Shown piece after piece: positions 19,917 through 27,433 of a stretch of 64,000 bases of DNA (positions are counted from its first letter, which is position 1; each line of letters begins with the position of its first letter). Source of the DNA: Rhizobiales bacterium PAR1. GTDB lineage: Bacteria; Pseudomonadota; Alphaproteobacteria; Rhizobiales; Beijerinckiaceae. The position numbers and the translations under genes were made by a program. The stretch lies in the NCBI GenBank assembly GCA_002256205.1, contig NKIW01000004.1, positions 263,802 to 327,801 on the forward strand, given 5' to 3'. The notes beneath the pieces were generated by a model. It searched no databases. It was not told the DNA's origin and saw nothing but the letters and a program-made list of their open reading frames with translations.

Positions 19917-20111
19917 CGACAAATCCTTACCGTTTTCCGGATAGCCGCATGGAAATATGCACTGCGGCCCCTATGTTAGGATTGTTGAAGCACGAAGCCC
20001 CCTCCCCGGCAACCGAGGCGCTCGCTGTTGATGCACAAGCAAAATTCACCATGCTCAAGCATTCTCCGTACCCTTTAACCGAATACGACGGATCACCCTG
20101 TAGGATTGTTC

Positions 20112-20660
20112 ATGAAAAACTCGGGGTGGACGATGGGATTGCCCGCAAAAATCCGGAAAACAGACGTCAGCATGGATTCATCCTCAATCCCGGCGGCGGA
20201 ATTCCGTCAGGTCATGGGCCAGTTCGCGACTGGCGTGACCATCATCACCACGCGTGACGCCCATGGCGCAGCGCAGGGGCTGACGATAAACTCGTTCGCC
20301 TCACTTTCGCTCGATCCGCCGCTGGTGATGTGGAGCCTGCGCCTGAACTCGACCTCGCTCGCCGCCTTTCGTGCAGCCACTCATTTCGCGATCAACGTTC
20401 TTTCCGCCGAGCAGGAAGATACGTCCAAGACCTTCGCACGCCCTGGTGACCGTTTCGCCGGCATCGACTGGCAGGCCGGTGAAAACGGCATGCCGCTGCT
20501 GAACGGGTCGCTGGCATGGATCGAGTGTGAGCGCTTCGCCGAATATCCCGGTGGCGATCATGTCATCTTTGTCGGCCGCGTCATCCGCGCGCGTCATTCC
20601 GAAGGGATGCCGCTGCTCTATTGGCGCGGTGCCTATTTCCCGGCAGGCGACAAGGCCTGA
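20112..20660 (+). CDS. flavin reductase domain protein (HpaC/RutF-like)
   Basis: NAD(P)H:flavin reductase-like protein, 182 aa, likely supplying reduced FMN or FAD to a two-component monooxygenase. FRQVMGQFATGVTIIT and the SFASLSLDPPLVMW segment are the family's FMN-binding signature, and HFAINVLSAEQ follows. I place the start at the ATG at 20112 because AGGA precedes it by six bases; the domain itself begins near an in-frame ATG at 20172, which is an alternative. No partner monooxygenase is adjacent. It is convergent with the GH2-like gene, with a hairpin between them. Confidence 0.87.
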   Translation: MKNSGWTMGLPAKIRKTDVSMDSSSIPAAEFRQVMGQFATGVTIITTRDAHGAAQGLTINSFASLSLDPPLVMWSLRLNSTSLAAFRAATHFAINVLSAEQEDTSKTFARPGDRFAGIDWQAGENGMPLLNGSLAWIECERFAEYPGGDHVIFVGRVIRARHSEGMPLLYWRGAYFPAGDKA

Positions 20661-20729: not shown

Positions 20730-23201
20730 TTATCCGCCGTAACGCGCCGCATCCAGACCGTTCACGGCCCGGACTTCCCCGGCGGGCGCATGCTTCTCCC
20801 GGCACGCGCGAGCCACCAGTTTCACTCGCTTCACGCCGCCCGGCGCAAGGTGAAACCAATTGTCCGAGGCGCGCCAGTTCTCATCGACGAGATGCACCGA
20901 TTGCGCAAAGCGCGTGGTAGCGATGTCGAGAAAGCATTCGCCGTTTTCCCCAACCAGCGTCGCCGAAAGCCCAAGCGTTTCGCGCGCGTTGCCGCGCCCT
21001 TGCGGGAAATGAAAGGCTTCAGCCAGCGTTTCCCCTGTCACGGAATTCGACAGCCGCGCCGAGGTCGCGCTATGGCCCGGTGGGCCAAAACGATAGGCAT
21101 AGGTTAGGTCGAAAAACGCATCGAGCATCTCGAACGCCGGGATAGTGAGATCAGTCCGCGGAGCGAGCATGAGATCGCGGGCCGCCGAGACCACAGGTGT
21201 CGCACCATCACGCCATGCCGTGAAGGAGAGGGTCGCAGCGAGCGGTTCGGCACGCTCATTGAGGACATGCAGTGCGAGACCGTTGACGCCCTCATCCGTC
21301 ATGGCGAGCTGCACCGGGCGAAAGGCGCGCTTGAGCGCATACCAGCCCGATTTCGGCTCGCCATCCGAGGCGATCACGCCCCAGCCGGCGCCGGGCGCAA
21401 GGTCTTGCAGGAACCACACCAGCGCGCCGCGAGTCGGCGAGGCAGGGCGGCGCCATTCGGCGAAACTCGCTTCCATCACCTCCGCAACAACCGCGCGAGC
21501 GCGCGCGAAATAGCGCTCTGGATCATCGCGCCGGAGGTGCAGCGCGGAGACGCCATAGAGGCGCTCAAGGTAATGATCGCGCACATCATCAAAATCCCAC
21601 GAGGCGCCGGCATCGCGCGGCACGCCGCGTTTCCAATCCGGGTGATGCAGGATCGCTGGCGGTGCACCATGCCCGAGCGAAGCCTCCTCCGGCACATTAG
21701 CGAAGGCGAGGCATTCAGCGGCAAAGCGCACCCCGGCGCGGCGCGCGTCATCGAGATCACGCATATAGGCGCCGACGCCGTAATAATGTGTCACGCCCTC
21801 ATTGGCGATGAAAGGCAGCGCGCCACCGGAGGGGGAGTTTGGCACATAGGCGATATCAGGCCGGAGTTTCGCAACCGTCTCCGGCAGCACCGTCTCGAAC
21901 ACCGGGCCGGACCAGACCTCGCGCGGTGCACCGAGCATCGCGGCCTGCTGGAACACCTCGCTGCCGCCGCACAGCACGACCAGCGAAGGCGACGTTTGCG
22001 CGCGATCGAGCAGCGTTTCCACCTCCGCGCGGATGGCGGCAAGAAAGCCCTCATCCGCTTGCGGATAATCGAAATTCGCCAGCATCATGTCCTGCCAGAC
22101 CATGATGCCGAGCTCGTCGCAAAGATCGAAGAACGCCTCGCTCTCGTAGGTCATGACCCCGCTGACGCGCAGCATGTTCATGCCCGCCTCTTTGGCCAGC
22201 GTCAGCCAGCGGGCATAGGCCGCGCGACCACAGGGCAAGGCCGAGACCTCGGCATTGGTCCATGACGCCCCCCGGCAGAAGACCGGCACGCCATTGAGGA
22301 TGAGGCCGAAGCCCTTGCCATCCGCCCCGCGATCCACTTGGAGCGTACGAAAGCCTATTTTTCCGAGGTCGAACCGCGTGCCGGCAATGTCCAGCGCAAG
22401 CGGATATAACGCCGGTTCTCCATGGGTATGCGGGAACCAGAGGCGGACATCGGGAACGATAACCTCGCCCTCAAGGACATCGGGCGCAACGGTACGCAGC
22501 GCACCGGAGGCCTCGCCGCAATGTGCAACGCCAGAGTGCGTCTCGCCAGATTTGAGTGTGAAGCGCAGTGACACAATGCCGGTTTCACCCTCGACACGGG
22601 TGCGGACATCGCAGGCCAGACAATTGAGCGAGGAAAGCGCATCGCCCTTCCGGGTTACGCCAAGGATCGGCCGATAGGGGCCGATGGGTCGCCCCTCCGG
22701 ACACCATCCGGGCATCGAGCCCAGCGCCGTCGTCCGAAAGCAGCGCAGGCCGTTGGGCTGCACCATCGCCGGGCGCCAGCGCGAGCGACGCGGCGCAGCG
22801 GCAAGCTTCGGCGCCAAGGCGCGGAAGCAGAGCGCGATTTCCGTGCCGCTCGCGAGGTCCACATCCAGCGCAACCGGCTCGAACATCGAGACGCTTTGGG
22901 CACGCTTTTCGCCGTTGATGAAGATGTCGCAGAGCGTCGCAAGGCCCTCGAACACGAGCTGCCCCTCGAGAGGCGCGTCAAGCCGGGTGCGATACCAGTG
23001 ATCCTGCTGATCGAACGCACCCGCCACCGGGCCAACCACCTTGAGGCTGGTCGCCAGGGTGCCCGGCACGACAGCCGGAATCCAACCGGGGGTTCCCGCC
23101 AAACCCGAAGGATCGGTGTGTGCGCCCGCCGTCGTCGAAAGACATTCCCAGCCGGAAAGCTCGCGCCGGTCTTCGCCCGTTGAGGTGCGGATCAGCGCCA
23201 T
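20730..23201 (-). CDS. glycoside hydrolase family 2-like protein with altered active site
   Basis: Cytoplasmic protein of GH2 (beta-mannosidase/beta-galactosidase) architecture, 823 aa with no signal peptide. An N-terminal sugar-binding domain (DHWYRTRLDAPLEG, about residues 67-80) is followed by an immunoglobulin-like domain and a TIM barrel from about residue 295, with KEAGMNMLRVSGVMTYESEAFFDLCDELG-type strand and helix order. The acid/base motif, normally N-E, is CGGSE, with E415 kept but Asn replaced by Ser414. The probable nucleophile is E496 in RFAAECLAF, where SEFG is usual. It starts 6 bp after the DUF1839 stop and is the last gene of the carrier-protein cluster, so it may act on an aminoacylated sugar rather than a polysaccharide. 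Hydrolytic activity is uncertain. Confidence 0.8.
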   Translation of the reverse strand: MALIRTSTGEDRRELSGWECLSTTAGAHTDPSGLAGTPGWIPAVVPGTLATSLKVVGPVAGAFDQQDHWYRTRLDAPLEGQLVFEGLATLCDIFINGEKRAQSVSMFEPVALDVDLASGTEIALCFRALAPKLAAAPRRSRWRPAMVQPNGLRCFRTTALGSMPGWCPEGRPIGPYRPILGVTRKGDALSSLNCLACDVRTRVEGETGIVSLRFTLKSGETHSGVAHCGEASGALRTVAPDVLEGEVIVPDVRLWFPHTHGEPALYPLALDIAGTRFDLGKIGFRTLQVDRGADGKGFGLILNGVPVFCRGASWTNAEVSALPCGRAAYARWLTLAKEAGMNMLRVSGVMTYESEAFFDLCDELGIMVWQDMMLANFDYPQADEGFLAAIRAEVETLLDRAQTSPSLVVLCGGSEVFQQAAMLGAPREVWSGPVFETVLPETVAKLRPDIAYVPNSPSGGALPFIANEGVTHYYGVGAYMRDLDDARRAGVRFAAECLAFANVPEEASLGHGAPPAILHHPDWKRGVPRDAGASWDFDDVRDHYLERLYGVSALHLRRDDPERYFARARAVVAEVMEASFAEWRRPASPTRGALVWFLQDLAPGAGWGVIASDGEPKSGWYALKRAFRPVQLAMTDEGVNGLALHVLNERAEPLAATLSFTAWRDGATPVVSAARDLMLAPRTDLTIPAFEMLDAFFDLTYAYRFGPPGHSATSARLSNSVTGETLAEAFHFPQGRGNARETLGLSATLVGENGECFLDIATTRFAQSVHLVDENWRASDNWFHLAPGGVKRVKLVARACREKHAPAGEVRAVNGLDAARYGG

Positions 23202-23207
23202 GATGAC

Positions 23208-24218
23208 TTAACGGGACAGCGCGCGACGGAGGCTCGCGATCACAGCGTCATAGTCGGCGACAAGCGGTTCCAGTGCACCGTCGAACCGGTCGAAGCGGCG
23301 CTGACGCAAGGCACGCGCGAGCTGGAACTGCGCGATCTTCGAGCCTTCCGCGAGCCGGAGCGCAGCCGCTTCGGGTGCGGCAAAATCGCCGCCAATCCAG
23401 CCCAGATGGCTCGCCAGAAGTTCGAAGTTCGCACCGAGCTGACGCAGCGTGTTGAAGGCGTAATGATGGAAGGCGTGCGGGGCGCGTTCGGCCAACACTT
23501 CTGCCTGAGCCGAGGCGACCGCGCGATAGGCTGCGACCGGGTTCTCCACCGGAACGCGCGCGAGATGATGCGCCAGCAACCGGACGGCTGTGGCTTTCAA
23601 TTCAGAAGCCTCTGTTGGTGCTGTCGGCAGTTTCACCATTTCCGCGTAGGGGAAAAGCGTATCCTCCCGCATCTGCCCCGGCAAAAGGCGGAACAGGCCG
23701 TCGAAATCCTCACCGGAGGCGTGGAAGAAGCCATCGTTATGGAAGTAATCCACCTCGCGCGCGACAGGGTCGAGCCGGTTGATGCCGATCGTCGTCTTGC
23801 CGTGTGTCTCGCGATAGGACACGCCGCGCGTATCAGGCATATAGAAGCTGTCGAGTTCGATCAGCACCAGCCGATGCCGCGCGATCTGCTGGCGGAGATG
23901 GCCGATGAGATCGTCATAAAGCGCGAGTTCCGTGACACGCAGGCCGAACAGTGCTTCGAGATCATCGAGCGGTGGTTTGAAGAAGGTGAACTGATCGCCT
24001 TCGAAATCCTGCGCCACGGTGAAGCCGAAAGCTGCCGCCGGCTCGGTGCCAAGCCGGTGCAAGATCTCGATCCAGAGATCGGCGTAACAGTTGGTCTGCG
24101 GCCAGTGACGCTCAGGCCCATGCATCGCATGAACCTGATATCCCGCTGGCGAGACGGCAAAAATCCGCTCATCGCCCGTTTTGGGCACGAAGATCGCCGG
24201 TTTGGGATGAGCGGTCAT
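23208..24218 (-). CDS. DUF1839 family protein, possible carrier-protein acyltransferase
   Basis: Protein of a family without assigned function, 336 aa from the ATG at 24218 (GGGGTAAG upstream). QTNCYADLWIEILH places C44 at the start of a helix, as in papain-like and BtrH-type proteins. LVLIELDSFYMPD (about 117-129) and then H139 in SYRETHG followed by TTIGINRLD resemble the His-bearing strands of that fold. BtrH-type enzymes move an aminoacyl group from a carrier protein to a sugar amine. The gene starts 14 bp after the aminoacyl ligase stop and 6 bp before the GH2-like gene. The acyltransferase idea rests on motif resemblance and context, not on shown homology. Confidence 0.75.
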   Translation of the reverse strand: MTAHPKPAIFVPKTGDERIFAVSPAGYQVHAMHGPERHWPQTNCYADLWIEILHRLGTEPAAAFGFTVAQDFEGDQFTFFKPPLDDLEALFGLRVTELALYDDLIGHLRQQIARHRLVLIELDSFYMPDTRGVSYRETHGKTTIGINRLDPVAREVDYFHNDGFFHASGEDFDGLFRLLPGQMREDTLFPYAEMVKLPTAPTEASELKATAVRLLAHHLARVPVENPVAAYRAVASAQAEVLAERAPHAFHHYAFNTLRQLGANFELLASHLGWIGGDFAAPEAAALRLAEGSKIAQFQLARALRQRRFDRFDGALEPLVADYDAVIASLRRALSR

Positions 24219-24232
24219 GCTACTTACCCCGC

Positions 24233-25147
24233 TTAGCCCCAGAGCGCCTTGCGAACGGCCTTCGGCCATTTTTCCGGGTCCATGCCGTGATGCTTGAAGA
24301 GCGCCAGCGCCACGCGCTCCATGCCGAAACCGACACAGGCGGTGTGCGCGATTTCGCCATCCGGTGTGCGGATTCCCCAGGTCGAGCCGAAGTGATCCTG
24401 ATGGTAGTTGAACGAGAGGCAAGCCGTCGGGCCGGCACCATCGTTAATCGGAATCAGAAGTTCGAACTTCAATTGCTGGTCGCGCTGGTTATTGGCGAGC
24501 ATGCGGCCGGCGCGACCAAAAAACGGATCATTCGCAACATCAACATCGATTGGCACACCGAGTTCCGCCATCATTTTCTGGCCGCGTTCGAGCCAGAGCG
24601 CCCGGAAATCCGTGCCCTGCGCAGGCGTGCCGAAGCGGACGTATTCGCGCATGCGGAAAAGCTGCATCCGCGTCGGTTCTTTCGAGGGCTCGTGGCGGAA
24701 GCAATAGGATTGCAGGTCGAACAGGCCGCCCTTTTCGCTCAACGCGCCGCGCTTGGCGACCACCGGGTAGAGCACATAGCAGGCCGCGGGCGTCAGCACG
24801 ACATCCGTCGGTTTTTGCCAGCCGGTCCAATCCTTGCCGTTTGCGACATTGTCGAGCAGCTCGGCGTGATCACGCTCGTTACCGGCGAAGGAATGAACCG
24901 TGCCAGCGAGATGCGGGAAACCCTTGAGGTAGCCCGACTTCTCGAAGTGTACGCGGTTCATCGCTGGCGGAAAACGCATGACTTCCGGACCATCGCCACC
25001 GCCCCAGCGGGTGATGAGATCGTCGAAGCGCGAGACGACATCCTCGAACTGCCCGGAGCGGCCATAGAGGCCGTCCACGCCCATTTCGATGAGATGACCG
25101 TGACGGATGAGGTTATCGAGCAAAGTATTGGTACAGGACTGGCACAT
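24233..25147 (-). CDS. amino acid:[carrier protein] ligase (SerRS-like, no tRNA-binding arm)
   Basis: Class II aminoacyl-tRNA-synthetase homologue that activates an amino acid with ATP and loads it on a carrier protein, 304 aa. It is only a catalytic core. Motif 2 lies around [21 protein letters not shown] and motif 3 is [12 protein letters not shown]. The long N-terminal tRNA-binding coiled coil of SerRS is missing. C123 (in [11 protein letters not shown]), E168 and C271 (in AHTACVGFG) match the Cys-Glu-Cys zinc site of characterised Bradyrhizobium enzymes, which prefer glycine; an Agrobacterium relative uses alanine. The dedicated carrier protein is encoded two genes upstream. A small amino acid is expected, though which one is not decided here. 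Confidence 0.9.
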
Positions 25148-25205
25148 GGCTTTTCAAAACCTCGGATTTCCGGGCAAACGCACTGACTATTTCGCATCTT
25201 CTTTC

Positions 25206-25259
25206 CCGCCAACCGGTACTCACCCCCGGATCAAGTCCGAGGGCATGTCTGGCGGGAGG
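25206..25259. repeat. intergenic palindromic repeat (RIME-like)
   Basis: Nested palindrome in the 117-bp gap between the dehydrogenase-like gene and the ligase. Outer arms TCCCGCCA (25206-25213) and TGGCGGGA (25252-25259) are perfect. An inner stem, 25225-25232 with 25238-25245, has one mismatch around loop TCAAG, giving the core CGGACTTGATCCGG on the minus strand. Cores of this kind recur in palindromic intergenic repeats of rhizobia and relatives. Only one copy is in this window. It could fold in the mRNA and lower expression of the genes after it. Confidence 0.6.
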
Positions 25260-25264
25260 GGGCT

Positions 25265-26518
25265 CTAGCGAACCAGGCTCGGGTCGTGCTTGTACACGGC
25301 GAGCAGGTTCGAGGTGTTGCCGAGGATGCGATCGTTGTTGATCATGATCGGGGTCGACATCGCATCGCGCATATGGCGCCCGAGGCTATGGGGGCTGTCA
25401 TTGCGATAGCCGTGGATGCCACAGATCAGGAACGCAAGCTGGACGATCTCGCACAGCCCTTGCGAGGCCGAGACCTTGATTGAGTTCATCGCAACGACAA
25501 AACCGATCGAGGAGAGTTCATCCGGATCGGCCTTGGCACTTTCATAGCGCTCAATGCCGGCGACGATCAGCGCCTTCATGCGCTGCAGCAGCGTGAGAAG
25601 CTCCGCGAGGCGCAGCGCGCCCGGCGGCGTGATGCCGGGGCGACGGCGCGCTTCGGCGCGAACAAAGGCTTCCGCCCGGCCCACGGCGTCGGCGGCAATG
25701 CCATACCAGGTCGCGGCCCAAAGAAGATGGGCGTGCGCGAGCATCGATTGCGCCGCGATATCCGCAAACGGTGCGGGAATGATCTGCTCGACCGGGGCTG
25801 CGCCTTCAAAGGTGAAGTTGTCCGAGCAGGTGCCGCGCATACCGAGCGTGTTCCAGACCTGCGTGCGCTCGAGCGTGTACTGGTCGCGCGTCATCACGGC
25901 CATCACCTGATCGGAGGGCGGCGCATCCGGGCTGCGGCGCGCGGTGATCAGGATGGAATCGGATTCGATACCGTAGGAAATCAGGCAACCTTCCTTGCGG
26001 AGCTGGAAGATCGTGCCCTGCTGGTCCACACCACAGTTCGATGAGCGGAGATCGCCGCCGACGCCGCCACCTTCCGTGGTCGCCGACCCGAGCAGAAGCT
26101 GCTCCGATGCGATGCGCCGCATGAAGCCACGATGCCACTCGGCGTCTTGCGCATGCGTCACAAGGCTTGAAACCTTGATCTGGTGCATGGCGTAGATCAT
26201 GCCGGTGGAGGCGCAGTTCTGCGCGAGCAGGCTGCAAATCTCGGCAATCGCCGTGAGGCTCGCTTCCGGACCGCCCAGTGCTTCCGGGATCATGATCCCG
26301 AGCAGGCGCTCCTTGCGTAGCGCATCGAAGGCTTCCTTCGGAAAGCGCGCCTCGGCATCGACCGAAGCCGAATGTTCCGCGACGAGCTTGCGCAGGGCAC
26401 GCGCCTTTTCCACCAGCACCTTGTCGGACGCCTTGCGGTCGACCGGAGCCAGCGAAGCGGGAACGAGGGAGAAGTCTTCCGCTTGTTCGGCGCGGCGAGC
26501 CGTGGAATTGCGAGTCAT
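25265..26518 (-). CDS. acyl-CoA dehydrogenase-like flavoprotein of the carrier-protein cluster
   Basis: Acyl-CoA dehydrogenase-fold protein, 417 aa from the ATG at 26518. The flavin-contact segment TEGGGVGGDLRSS (about 148-160) stands where TEPGAGSD is usual, and IHGYRNDSP...RHMRDA (369-386) is the conserved C-terminal region. The position of the catalytic Glu in YEGT-type members aligns with I393 (IMINNDRILGN), and no isovaleryl-type Glu is evident. It may therefore catalyse something other than alpha,beta-desaturation, for example oxidation or hydroxylation at a carrier-bound aminoacyl group. ACAD-fold enzymes working on prolyl-carrier proteins are precedent. Its start is one base after the carrier-protein stop (TGATATG), so the two are tightly coupled. 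Confidence 0.85.
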   Translation of the reverse strand: MTRNSTARRAEQAEDFSLVPASLAPVDRKASDKVLVEKARALRKLVAEHSASVDAEARFPKEAFDALRKERLLGIMIPEALGGPEASLTAIAEICSLLAQNCASTGMIYAMHQIKVSSLVTHAQDAEWHRGFMRRIASEQLLLGSATTEGGGVGGDLRSSNCGVDQQGTIFQLRKEGCLISYGIESDSILITARRSPDAPPSDQVMAVMTRDQYTLERTQVWNTLGMRGTCSDNFTFEGAAPVEQIIPAPFADIAAQSMLAHAHLLWAATWYGIAADAVGRAEAFVRAEARRRPGITPPGALRLAELLTLLQRMKALIVAGIERYESAKADPDELSSIGFVVAMNSIKVSASQGLCEIVQLAFLICGIHGYRNDSPHSLGRHMRDAMSTPIMINNDRILGNTSNLLAVYKHDPSLVR

Positions 26519-26519
26519 A

Positions 26520-26768
26520 TCAGGCCGCCATATCCTGCTGGATCTTTTCCAGCGCGCCCTCAATGGCTGCGACCGACGCAAAGTTGCGACGGTTCATCAT
26601 CCGGTCCGGATATTCGATGTCGAACGCTTCCTCGAGCGCCATCATCAACTCGACCGAGGCAAAGGACGTCAGGCCTGCCGCATGTAGATCATCCGTGTCC
26701 CCGAGCGTGTCGATTGCAACGGGAAGGCGGCCATGCTTGGCAAGAATTTCGCGGATCTTCGCTTTCAT
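26520..26768 (-). CDS. acyl/aminoacyl carrier protein
   Basis: Small carrier protein, 82 aa, with an acidic helix II. The phosphopantetheine Ser is S35 in AGLTSFASVELMMALEE, where DSL is the common form; Thr-Ser replaces Asp-Ser, as in other dedicated aminoacyl carriers. The rest (IEYPDRMMNRRNFASVAAIEGAL) matches carrier helices III and IV. It is the first gene of the cluster, directly coupled to the ACAD-like gene and two genes before the ligase, which should load its thiol arm. A phosphopantetheinyl transferase must come from elsewhere. A 7-base inverted repeat lies in its 149-bp leader. Confidence 0.9.
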   Translation of the reverse strand: MKAKIREILAKHGRLPVAIDTLGDTDDLHAAGLTSFASVELMMALEEAFDIEYPDRMMNRRNFASVAAIEGALEKIQQDMAA

Positions 26769-26917: not shown

Positions 26918-27433
26918 TCAGGCCAATTCCGTTGCTTTGTAGCGAGTTTTGATTAAATTCGGGTTGTGCGAATGCTCGAATTCCTCCTGCCGACCCGGCG
27001 GATTGTCGAGCTCGACCGGAAAGAAGATCCGCCCGAGAAACTTCAGCGCCCGCAAGAGAAAGCCACCGGCCACGGGCAACGAATGGCGGCAGACGCAGAT
27101 CTTGCGAACCGAAACCGGCACATGCCAGACACACCAGGTGCCATTGCGGAACAGCGCCACATCGCCAGCGGAGAGCGTCATCGGCGCTTCACCGGGCTTC
27201 TTGACGATCACCTCGCCTTCGAGAATGTGAACGGTCTCGTCCATCCCGAAGTACCAGTTGAAGGTGCCTGCGGTGCAGGACCAGTGCGAGGTCACGGTGG
27301 TCTTGTCCGTGGAGCGTGAAAGCTCCTGAACCTTTGCGACCGGTGAACCGGAAATGATCCACGACGGGCGGATTGGCGAATCCACCAGAGAGGCCACATC
27401 CGGCCGCGCTACGACGATGGCTTGTGCAGACAT
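26918..27433 (-). CDS. cupin domain protein (DUF861/ureidoglycine-aminohydrolase-like)
   Basis: Single-cupin protein, 171 aa. GTFNWYFGMDETVHILEGEVIV and the later GDVALFRNGTWCVWHV are the two cupin motifs of the ChrR/EutQ/DUF861 type, in which only part of the metal-binding His set is kept. A Pro- and charge-rich C-terminus follows. It precedes the carrier-protein gene on the same strand with 149 bp between, so it might belong to that cluster or be a separate unit. No reaction can be assigned. Confidence 0.8.
   Translation of the reverse strand: MSAQAIVVARPDVASLVDSPIRPSWIISGSPVAKVQELSRSTDKTTVTSHWSCTAGTFNWYFGMDETVHILEGEVIVKKPGEAPMTLSAGDVALFRNGTWCVWHVPVSVRKICVCRHSLPVAGGFLLRALKFLGRIFFPVELDNPPGRQEEFEHSHNPNLIKTRYKATELA

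Follow-up and report, generated by a model that had tools for sequence, protein, structure and literature searches.

What becomes of an amino acid once a relative of a tRNA synthetase has loaded it onto a carrier protein? To our knowledge, the use of the amino acid loaded by amino acid:[carrier protein] ligases has stayed open since 2010, despite solved ligase structures. The question is raised anew by five genes in a stretch of 64,000 nucleotides from Rhizobiales bacterium PAR1, referred to as the window. The genes share the minus strand from 26768 down to 20730, in the order carrier protein (CP), flavoprotein with the acyl-CoA dehydrogenase (ACAD) fold, seryl-tRNA synthetase (SerRS)-like ligase, DUF1839 protein, and a protein of glycoside hydrolase family 2 (GH2). 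The intergenic gaps are 1, 117, 14, and 6 nt in that order, with the ATG of the ACAD at 26518, one base past the CP stop. Coordinates and family matches agree with the first-pass annotation, which had named these five closely spaced genes from the DNA letters.

The cluster is read here, with modest confidence, as a carrier-protein pathway that attaches an aminoacyl group to the nitrogen of an amine; this amine is most likely an amino sugar belonging to a surface polysaccharide. The ligase would activate a small amino acid, by analogy glycine or alanine, and load it onto the phosphopantetheine at Ser35 of the CP, and the ACAD-fold flavoprotein might modify the carrier-bound aminoacyl group. DUF1839, judging from its fold and conserved residues, would take the aminoacyl group on Cys44 and hand it to an amine, as in the amide synthase CcbD. 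The GH2 protein, probably cytoplasmic, would have as its substrate a beta-glycoside that is altered on the C2 side and may be the acceptor or the product. Linkage suggests that a tandem alpha/beta hydrolase and polysaccharide export genes would carry the product onward.

Such a pathway had been taken as undescribed in the first-pass annotation, a claim that has to be given up, as it was predicted in 2010. In a note added in proof, Iyer and Aravind proposed that the amine of a cell-surface sugar receives an amino acid, with Atu2574 as the amide-forming ligase and a redox enzyme modifying the amino acid (PMC2922099). Their gene set of acyl carrier protein, redox enzyme, conserved open reading frame Atu2574, glycosidase, and liposaccharide genes yields a near-identical model; it differs in being a prediction without fold, catalytic residues, or GH2 type, and in calling the redox enzyme a Rossmann fold (PMC2922099). 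Based on gene order, we infer that Atu2574 is a DUF1839 protein. New here are the modelled CcbD-type fold of DUF1839, the pattern of Cys loss, the constant GH2 with its SE motif, the residue analysis of the ACAD, a sixth gene, and the counts.

With the link between DUF1839 and CcbD, an old guess from gene neighborhood gives way to a specific proposed reaction whose nucleophile can be named. The DUF1839 gene (23208-24218, minus strand; PF08893 394.5 bits, cut-off 22.5) encodes a protein of papain-like fold with the putative nucleophile Cys44. An AlphaFold2 model built from 35 sequences (pLDDT 87.2, pTM 0.87) was compared with the PDB using Foldseek. All 19 matches at E<=0.001 were AziU3/U2, CtaG, or CcbD, spanning 319-364 alignment columns with TM 0.51-0.63, TMq 0.52-0.61, and E 3e-7 to 2e-4; from rank 20 on, TMq was 0.29 or less. 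CtaG (closthioamide) and AziU3/U2 (azinomycin) fall in the same fold group as DUF1839 at 11-17% identity and act on other substrates. CtaG, and more doubtfully AziU3, uses carrier-linked substrates. The closest functional parallel is with CcbD and its counterpart LmbD, which the model resembles over its length. According to an excerpt of PMC12945683, CcbD/LmbD link a carrier-bound proline-type unit through an amide bond to the amine of an amino-octose by a Cys ping-pong mechanism, a transfer from CP to amino-sugar amine, and carrier binding by CcbD involves its Arg residues at 312-324 and Glu residues of the carrier. DUF1839 carries a basic C-terminal patch at 302-308 (R302 in 96/96 sequences), and in the CP the residues E46 (101/101), E52 (100/101), and an acidic residue at 47 (95 of the 101) are conserved; by analogy, patch and acidic residues would fit a carrier interface like that of CcbD. 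The two systems differ in activation, which relies on an A-domain in the lincosamide pathway (PMC4351081, the portion available) and on the SerRS-like ligase in this cluster.

The candidate catalytic residues of DUF1839 are highly conserved. Cys44 is present in 93 of 96 sequences, H139, H160, E121, and D123 each in all 96, T142 in 92, and T143 in 91. The three proteins that lack the Cys (loci L124, L190, and L192) come from genomes that each harbor a second copy with the Cys (in L124, L193, and L192, respectively). In the two-copy genomes, one of which is Cupriavidus metallidurans, the Cys has disappeared from the operon copy and is retained in the second; the two may possibly form a pair of catalytic and structural subunits. 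The occurrence of Cys-less copies only alongside a Cys-bearing copy argues that Cys44 is needed for DUF1839 function. Based on the model, DUF1839 is proposed to be a carrier-dependent aminoacyl transferase (amide synthase) with Cys44 as its nucleophile. The transfer step assigned to DUF1839 at the outset gains from the CcbD/CtaG/AziU3-like fold; that the acceptor is sugar-like is still something we infer.

The first step of the pathway is the one closest to known biochemistry, as had been stated for the ligase and carrier from the start, and both proteins fall in a characterized family. The ligase (24233-25147, minus strand; NF005479 498.8 bits, cut-off 357) scores above the curated family threshold, which places it among the SerRS-like amino acid:[carrier protein] ligases, and matches the structures of Bll0957 at E 2.6e-98. 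Its Cys-Glu-Cys zinc site, C123/E168/C271, is invariant in 114/114 aligned ligases and presumably equivalent, via the alignment, to C131/E176/C279 of Bll0957. The CP (26520-26768, minus strand, 82 aa; NF005480 110.7 bits, cut-off 72) carries its phosphopantetheine serine, S35, in 101/101 sequences, and its solved relatives are Atu2571 (2jq4, E 1.9e-26) and an aminoacyl carrier protein (4h2w_C, E 1.8e-26). Both proteins are clearly homologous to those of the Bll0957/Atu2571 system, with the same zinc-site residues; the characterization of that system by Mocibob in 2010 and 2013, work cited in PMC9437257 and PMC2922099, reportedly ends at the loaded carrier. A table passage of PMC10888616 gives a threefold change in a phaR mutant for both the ligase Bll0957 and the ACAD Bll0958 of Bradyrhizobium diazoefficiens. 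All family alignments include the window sequence, and rows were removed for length (GH2 2/101, DUF1839 11/106, ligase 6/119, ACAD 10/116, and CP 3/103).

The distribution of the five genes separates a core from an extension. Among 398 sampled genomes of the phylum, DUF1839 is present in 16 and the ligase exceeds its cut-off in 28. The ligase adjoins DUF1839 in 16/16 DUF1839 genomes (hypergeometric p ~2e-21, uncorrected for relatedness), all 16 of which have the five genes in order; the ligase of one, G557, has an in-frame TAA within the matched stretch. The window GH2 as query matches 23/398 genomes at E 1e-30 or better. Orthologs of at least 680 bits (43 to 100% identity) occur in exactly the 16 DUF1839 genomes, and the next match drops to 166 bits and 29% identity. 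DUF1839 and the GH2 ortholog mark one and the same set of 16 genomes, all with the ligase, in keeping with the co-occurrence of families that the first-pass annotation had proposed to check. It had also named ligase and carrier occurring widely without the other three genes as evidence against its model, and a ligase without DUF1839 and GH2 is indeed common: both are missing from 12 of the 28 ligase genomes, all 12 have an ACAD beside the ligase, and five have a carrier near it with the window CP as query. Consequently, ligase, carrier, and usually ACAD are a wider module, of which DUF1839 and GH2 are a linked extension.

Even sampling of the class gave a second set of 385 genomes, which overlaps the first; five of these contain DUF1839, 10 have a ligase above the cut-off, and the ligase is next to DUF1839 in 5/5. 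The complete set of five genes is found in G280 and G358. In G186 the first four lie together, with the GH2 on a separate contig, and G131 and G316 have ligase and CP with no ACAD match nearby. Of the best 80 loci among the matches of a pattern scan of the genome collection, drawn from Bosea, Rhizobium, and kin and favoring close relatives, 78 keep the order of the window with all five genes on the same strand; the remaining two run off the contig. On plasmid records with DUF1839, a ligase match is found on the same record in 57/59. The cluster order in Azospirillum and Burkholderiaceae is the same as in the window, and the Cupriavidus cluster has the usual gene order. The source genome of the window has one match each for DUF1839 and the ligase.

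Single loci vary on this theme. On Rhizobium binae p4 (L126, 12552-15880), a CP-ACAD-ligase-DUF1839 cassette without GH2 lies not far from conjugation genes, and on the plasmid of R. leguminosarum Vaf10 (L199, 9950-20927) a DUF1839 gene without an annotated adjoining ligase lies near transposases and a large nonribosomal peptide synthetase (NRPS) gene. An ACAD-ligase pair in L033 (6697-11189) is next to a Cys/Met-type pyridoxal phosphate enzyme and a homoserine O-succinyltransferase-like gene, perhaps another use of the loaded carrier. On a Priestia plasmid (L125, 808-16695), CP-ACAD-ligase is accompanied by genes for holo-ACP synthase, ATP-grasp enzymes, and a racemase and a permease for alanine, neighbors that hint at alanine as the substrate. 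The notion that ligase and carrier are always accompanied by the other genes is rejected by the 12 ligase genomes above and also by Priestia and Tsukamurella.

The constant partner of DUF1839 is the GH2 protein (20730-23201, minus strand; PF22666 29.6 bits, cut-off 27), which matches the solved beta-mannosidase 5n6u at E 2.1e-48. The predicted acid/base E415, the predicted nucleophile E496, and the conserved R345 are each present in 100/100 sequences. The hallmarks of beta-mannosidases, an NE motif and a Trp in loop-2, are missing: the residue ahead of the acid/base, S414, is Ser in 99/100 (SE, not NE), and residue 347, equated with the loop-2 position by eye, is Gly in 63, Pro in 29, Ser in six, and Ala in two. 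In a study of GH2 subfamilies, NE is usual, SD occurs in glucosaminidases, and SE with Gly is found in GH2_14, a combination suggested to admit substituted substrates (PMC12243196); the assayed GH2_14 members mentioned in the accessible part of that study are beta-galactosidases. The SE motif and the small loop-2 residue, compared with GH2_14, suggest that the pocket may tolerate a changed C2 side. A secreted GH2 is not favored, as 0/100 N-terminal stretches reached 1.8 or more in a hydropathy test, which is crude and not a signal-peptide predictor.

The ACAD-fold flavoprotein (25265-26518, minus strand; PF02771 and PF00441) would probably modify the carrier-bound aminoacyl group. Searches used the frame from 26530, four residues ahead of the ATG, and residue numbers refer to this 421-residue frame. 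The AlphaFold2 model (pLDDT 84.2) has top Foldseek matches that mix the monooxygenase TdsC, dehydrogenases, and KijD3, and sequence and fold matches include dehydrogenases, flavin mononucleotide (FMN) monooxygenases, and nitrososynthases alike; the fold is therefore undecisive on enzyme type. Residues provide some direction. At the position of the usual dehydrogenase Glu (YEGT), I397 is found in 105/107 ACADs and Val in two, and three simple FAD-type dehydrogenase patterns are absent from all 107 aligned sequences. Oxygenation or amine oxidation is weakly favored over alpha,beta-desaturation. A true dehydrogenase that forms a dehydroamino acid or imine on the carrier, like the prolyl-carrier dehydrogenases, is a possible if rather doubtful alternative. 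It draws on the ACAD fold itself, on a match to the prolyl-ACP dehydrogenase 4irn (E 1.5e-6), and on a weak match to a RedW-type model (25.6 bits, cut-off 650). The dehydrogenase 7p98, the best sequence match, has Thr at the usual Glu position, and loss of the Glu therefore does not exclude dehydrogenation. Against a dehydrogenase stand the Ile/Val at that position and the missing patterns in 107/107, and glycine, should that be the substrate, lacks a beta carbon. A gene for an HpaC/HsaB-like flavin reductase at 20106-20660 on the plus strand, convergent with the GH2 gene, could supply a flavin monooxygenase; a flavin reductase lies near the cluster in only one of the 80 best loci (L056).

Where the product goes is suggested by genes beyond the five. 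One of them encodes a tandem alpha/beta hydrolase, a relative of the exosortase-A-associated hydrolases that scores below their cut-offs. In 15/15 tested DUF1839 genomes, one being the query's own, its match spans 515 or more of the 576 query residues. It is matched in the genome of the window on another contig, where a Wzz/AAA protein and a MurJ-like flippase are encoded nearby. No such match was found in the 12 ligase genomes without DUF1839, apart from one short partial. The second nucleophile elbow reads GxCSG; of 67 rows (L027 counted twice), 62 have a residue at the Cys position, and in 61 it is Cys. Within 111 loci, 66 tandem hydrolases were found, 26 of which are 1,103 to 1,122 aa long; the long form that was scanned, from Rhizobium (L075), is a polysaccharide flippase fused to the hydrolase.

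The neighbors of DUF1839 loci include glycosyltransferases, sugar transferase, ManC, Wzc, and flippases, with a polysaccharide deacetylase near the cluster at one locus. Glycosyltransferase group 1, sugar transferase, and ManC are absent from the 25 commonest families of control loci without DUF1839. The comparison was hand-chosen, with 69 proteins in seven loci and 72 in nine loci with DUF1839 and 78 in nine loci without it; 25 families were taken per set, and some short or doubtful frames and part of L173-L178 were omitted. The Mycetohabitans stretch has scattered glycan genes. Plasmid 13 of Tsukamurella, an actinobacterial locus (L197, 5722-16445), has ligase, CP, and phosphopantetheinyl transferase within a polysaccharide locus that also contains four annotated glycosyltransferase genes, a polyprenyl glycosylphosphotransferase, and a tandem alpha/beta hydrolase, distant at 30% identity and with the same Cys motif; its annotated genes include no ACAD, DUF1839, or GH2. 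A more specific version of the pathway can be offered tentatively, in which the system decorates exopolysaccharide amino sugars with an oxidized, perhaps N-hydroxylated, small amino acid via the lincosamide-synthetase-like transferase, with the GH2 of widened C2 pocket proofreading or trimming and a flippase-tied Cys-nucleophile hydrolase.

The strongest rival holds that the product is a diffusible aminoacyl-sugar small molecule, following the logic of the lincosamides rather than decorating a polymer, with the GH2 releasing or protecting it. CcbD itself makes an antibiotic (PMC12945683, in the excerpt), several stretches have no adjacent polysaccharide operons, and in family f174 the distribution is patchy, with DUF1839 in six sampled genomes and missing in at least nine. 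A lone DUF1839 lies beside the NRPS on the Rhizobium plasmid, the Priestia ligase locus resembles a small-molecule cluster, and four of the genes are carried by a conjugative plasmid. The recurrence of sugar transferase, Wzc, ManC, flippases, and deacetylase nearby in several families speaks against this rival, which is judged unlikely. An aminoacylated amino sugar route is judged probable, with a diffusible product as a fair rival.

In another scenario, DUF1839 is a hydrolase or thioesterase that frees the modified amino acid from the carrier, and the link to glycans is secondary. Many papain folds are hydrolases, and the acceptor of the proposed transfer is deduced indirectly. The survey of papain-like proteins in PMC10318531, in the part at hand, groups DUF1839 with them, describes a permuted C-(T/S)-H triad, and suggests an acyl-CoA-dependent role on cell-wall glycans; the same class is recognized there, and that part does not make the link to CP-dependent amide synthases. 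A hydrolase is improbable, given that the close fold matches are biosynthetic enzymes, not proteases, and that the GH2 is a constant partner. That the five genes are a conserved neighborhood without a shared pathway is very improbable: conserved order can outlast function within one order and the p-values ignore relatedness, but the same order is met in Azospirillum and Burkholderiaceae, and the GH2 is retained elsewhere in the genome when unlinked (G186).

Several observations weigh against the aminoacylated amino sugar route. The fold matches of DUF1839 are loose (rmsd 5.5-7.9 at the TM values above), and a profile search of PDB sequences did not link DUF1839 to CcbD, CtaG, or AziU3, returning only a chance match at E 0.2; a similar way of working is therefore claimed, not membership. 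The triad described for DUF1839 (PMC10318531, the same part) also differs from the Cys-His-Glu of CcbD. Two Rhizobium plasmids have DUF1839 and no ligase: p3 of Rhizobium sp. NZLR1 has a lone DUF1839 in a setting that resembles that of L126, and the other has a partial DUF1839 match close to an annotated carrier gene. Control loci without DUF1839 still hold three Wzz-domain proteins, and no polysaccharide export operon was found beside the cluster in the window (17-31 kb) or in the Azospirillum, Mycetohabitans, and Caballeronia stretches. In the open-licence PMC literature, no biochemical work was found on DUF1839 or on the ACAD and GH2 steps.

If true, the aminoacylated amino sugar route would lead to amino-acid-modified glycans in rhizobia, Bosea, Azospirillum, and Burkholderiaceae, of relevance to plant and soil life, and tRNA-synthetase chemistry would be re-used for glycan tailoring. 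Another derivative of a synthetase is met beside some Rhizobium clusters (e.g. L070, 4520-7349), which adjoin elongation factor P and two Epm-like genes that we take to be EpmA, a synthetase paralog, and EpmB. In the window, a gene for an EutQ-like cupin (26918-27433, minus strand) lies directly upstream of the carrier gene, and a stretch 43% identical to it comes after the ligase in L172.

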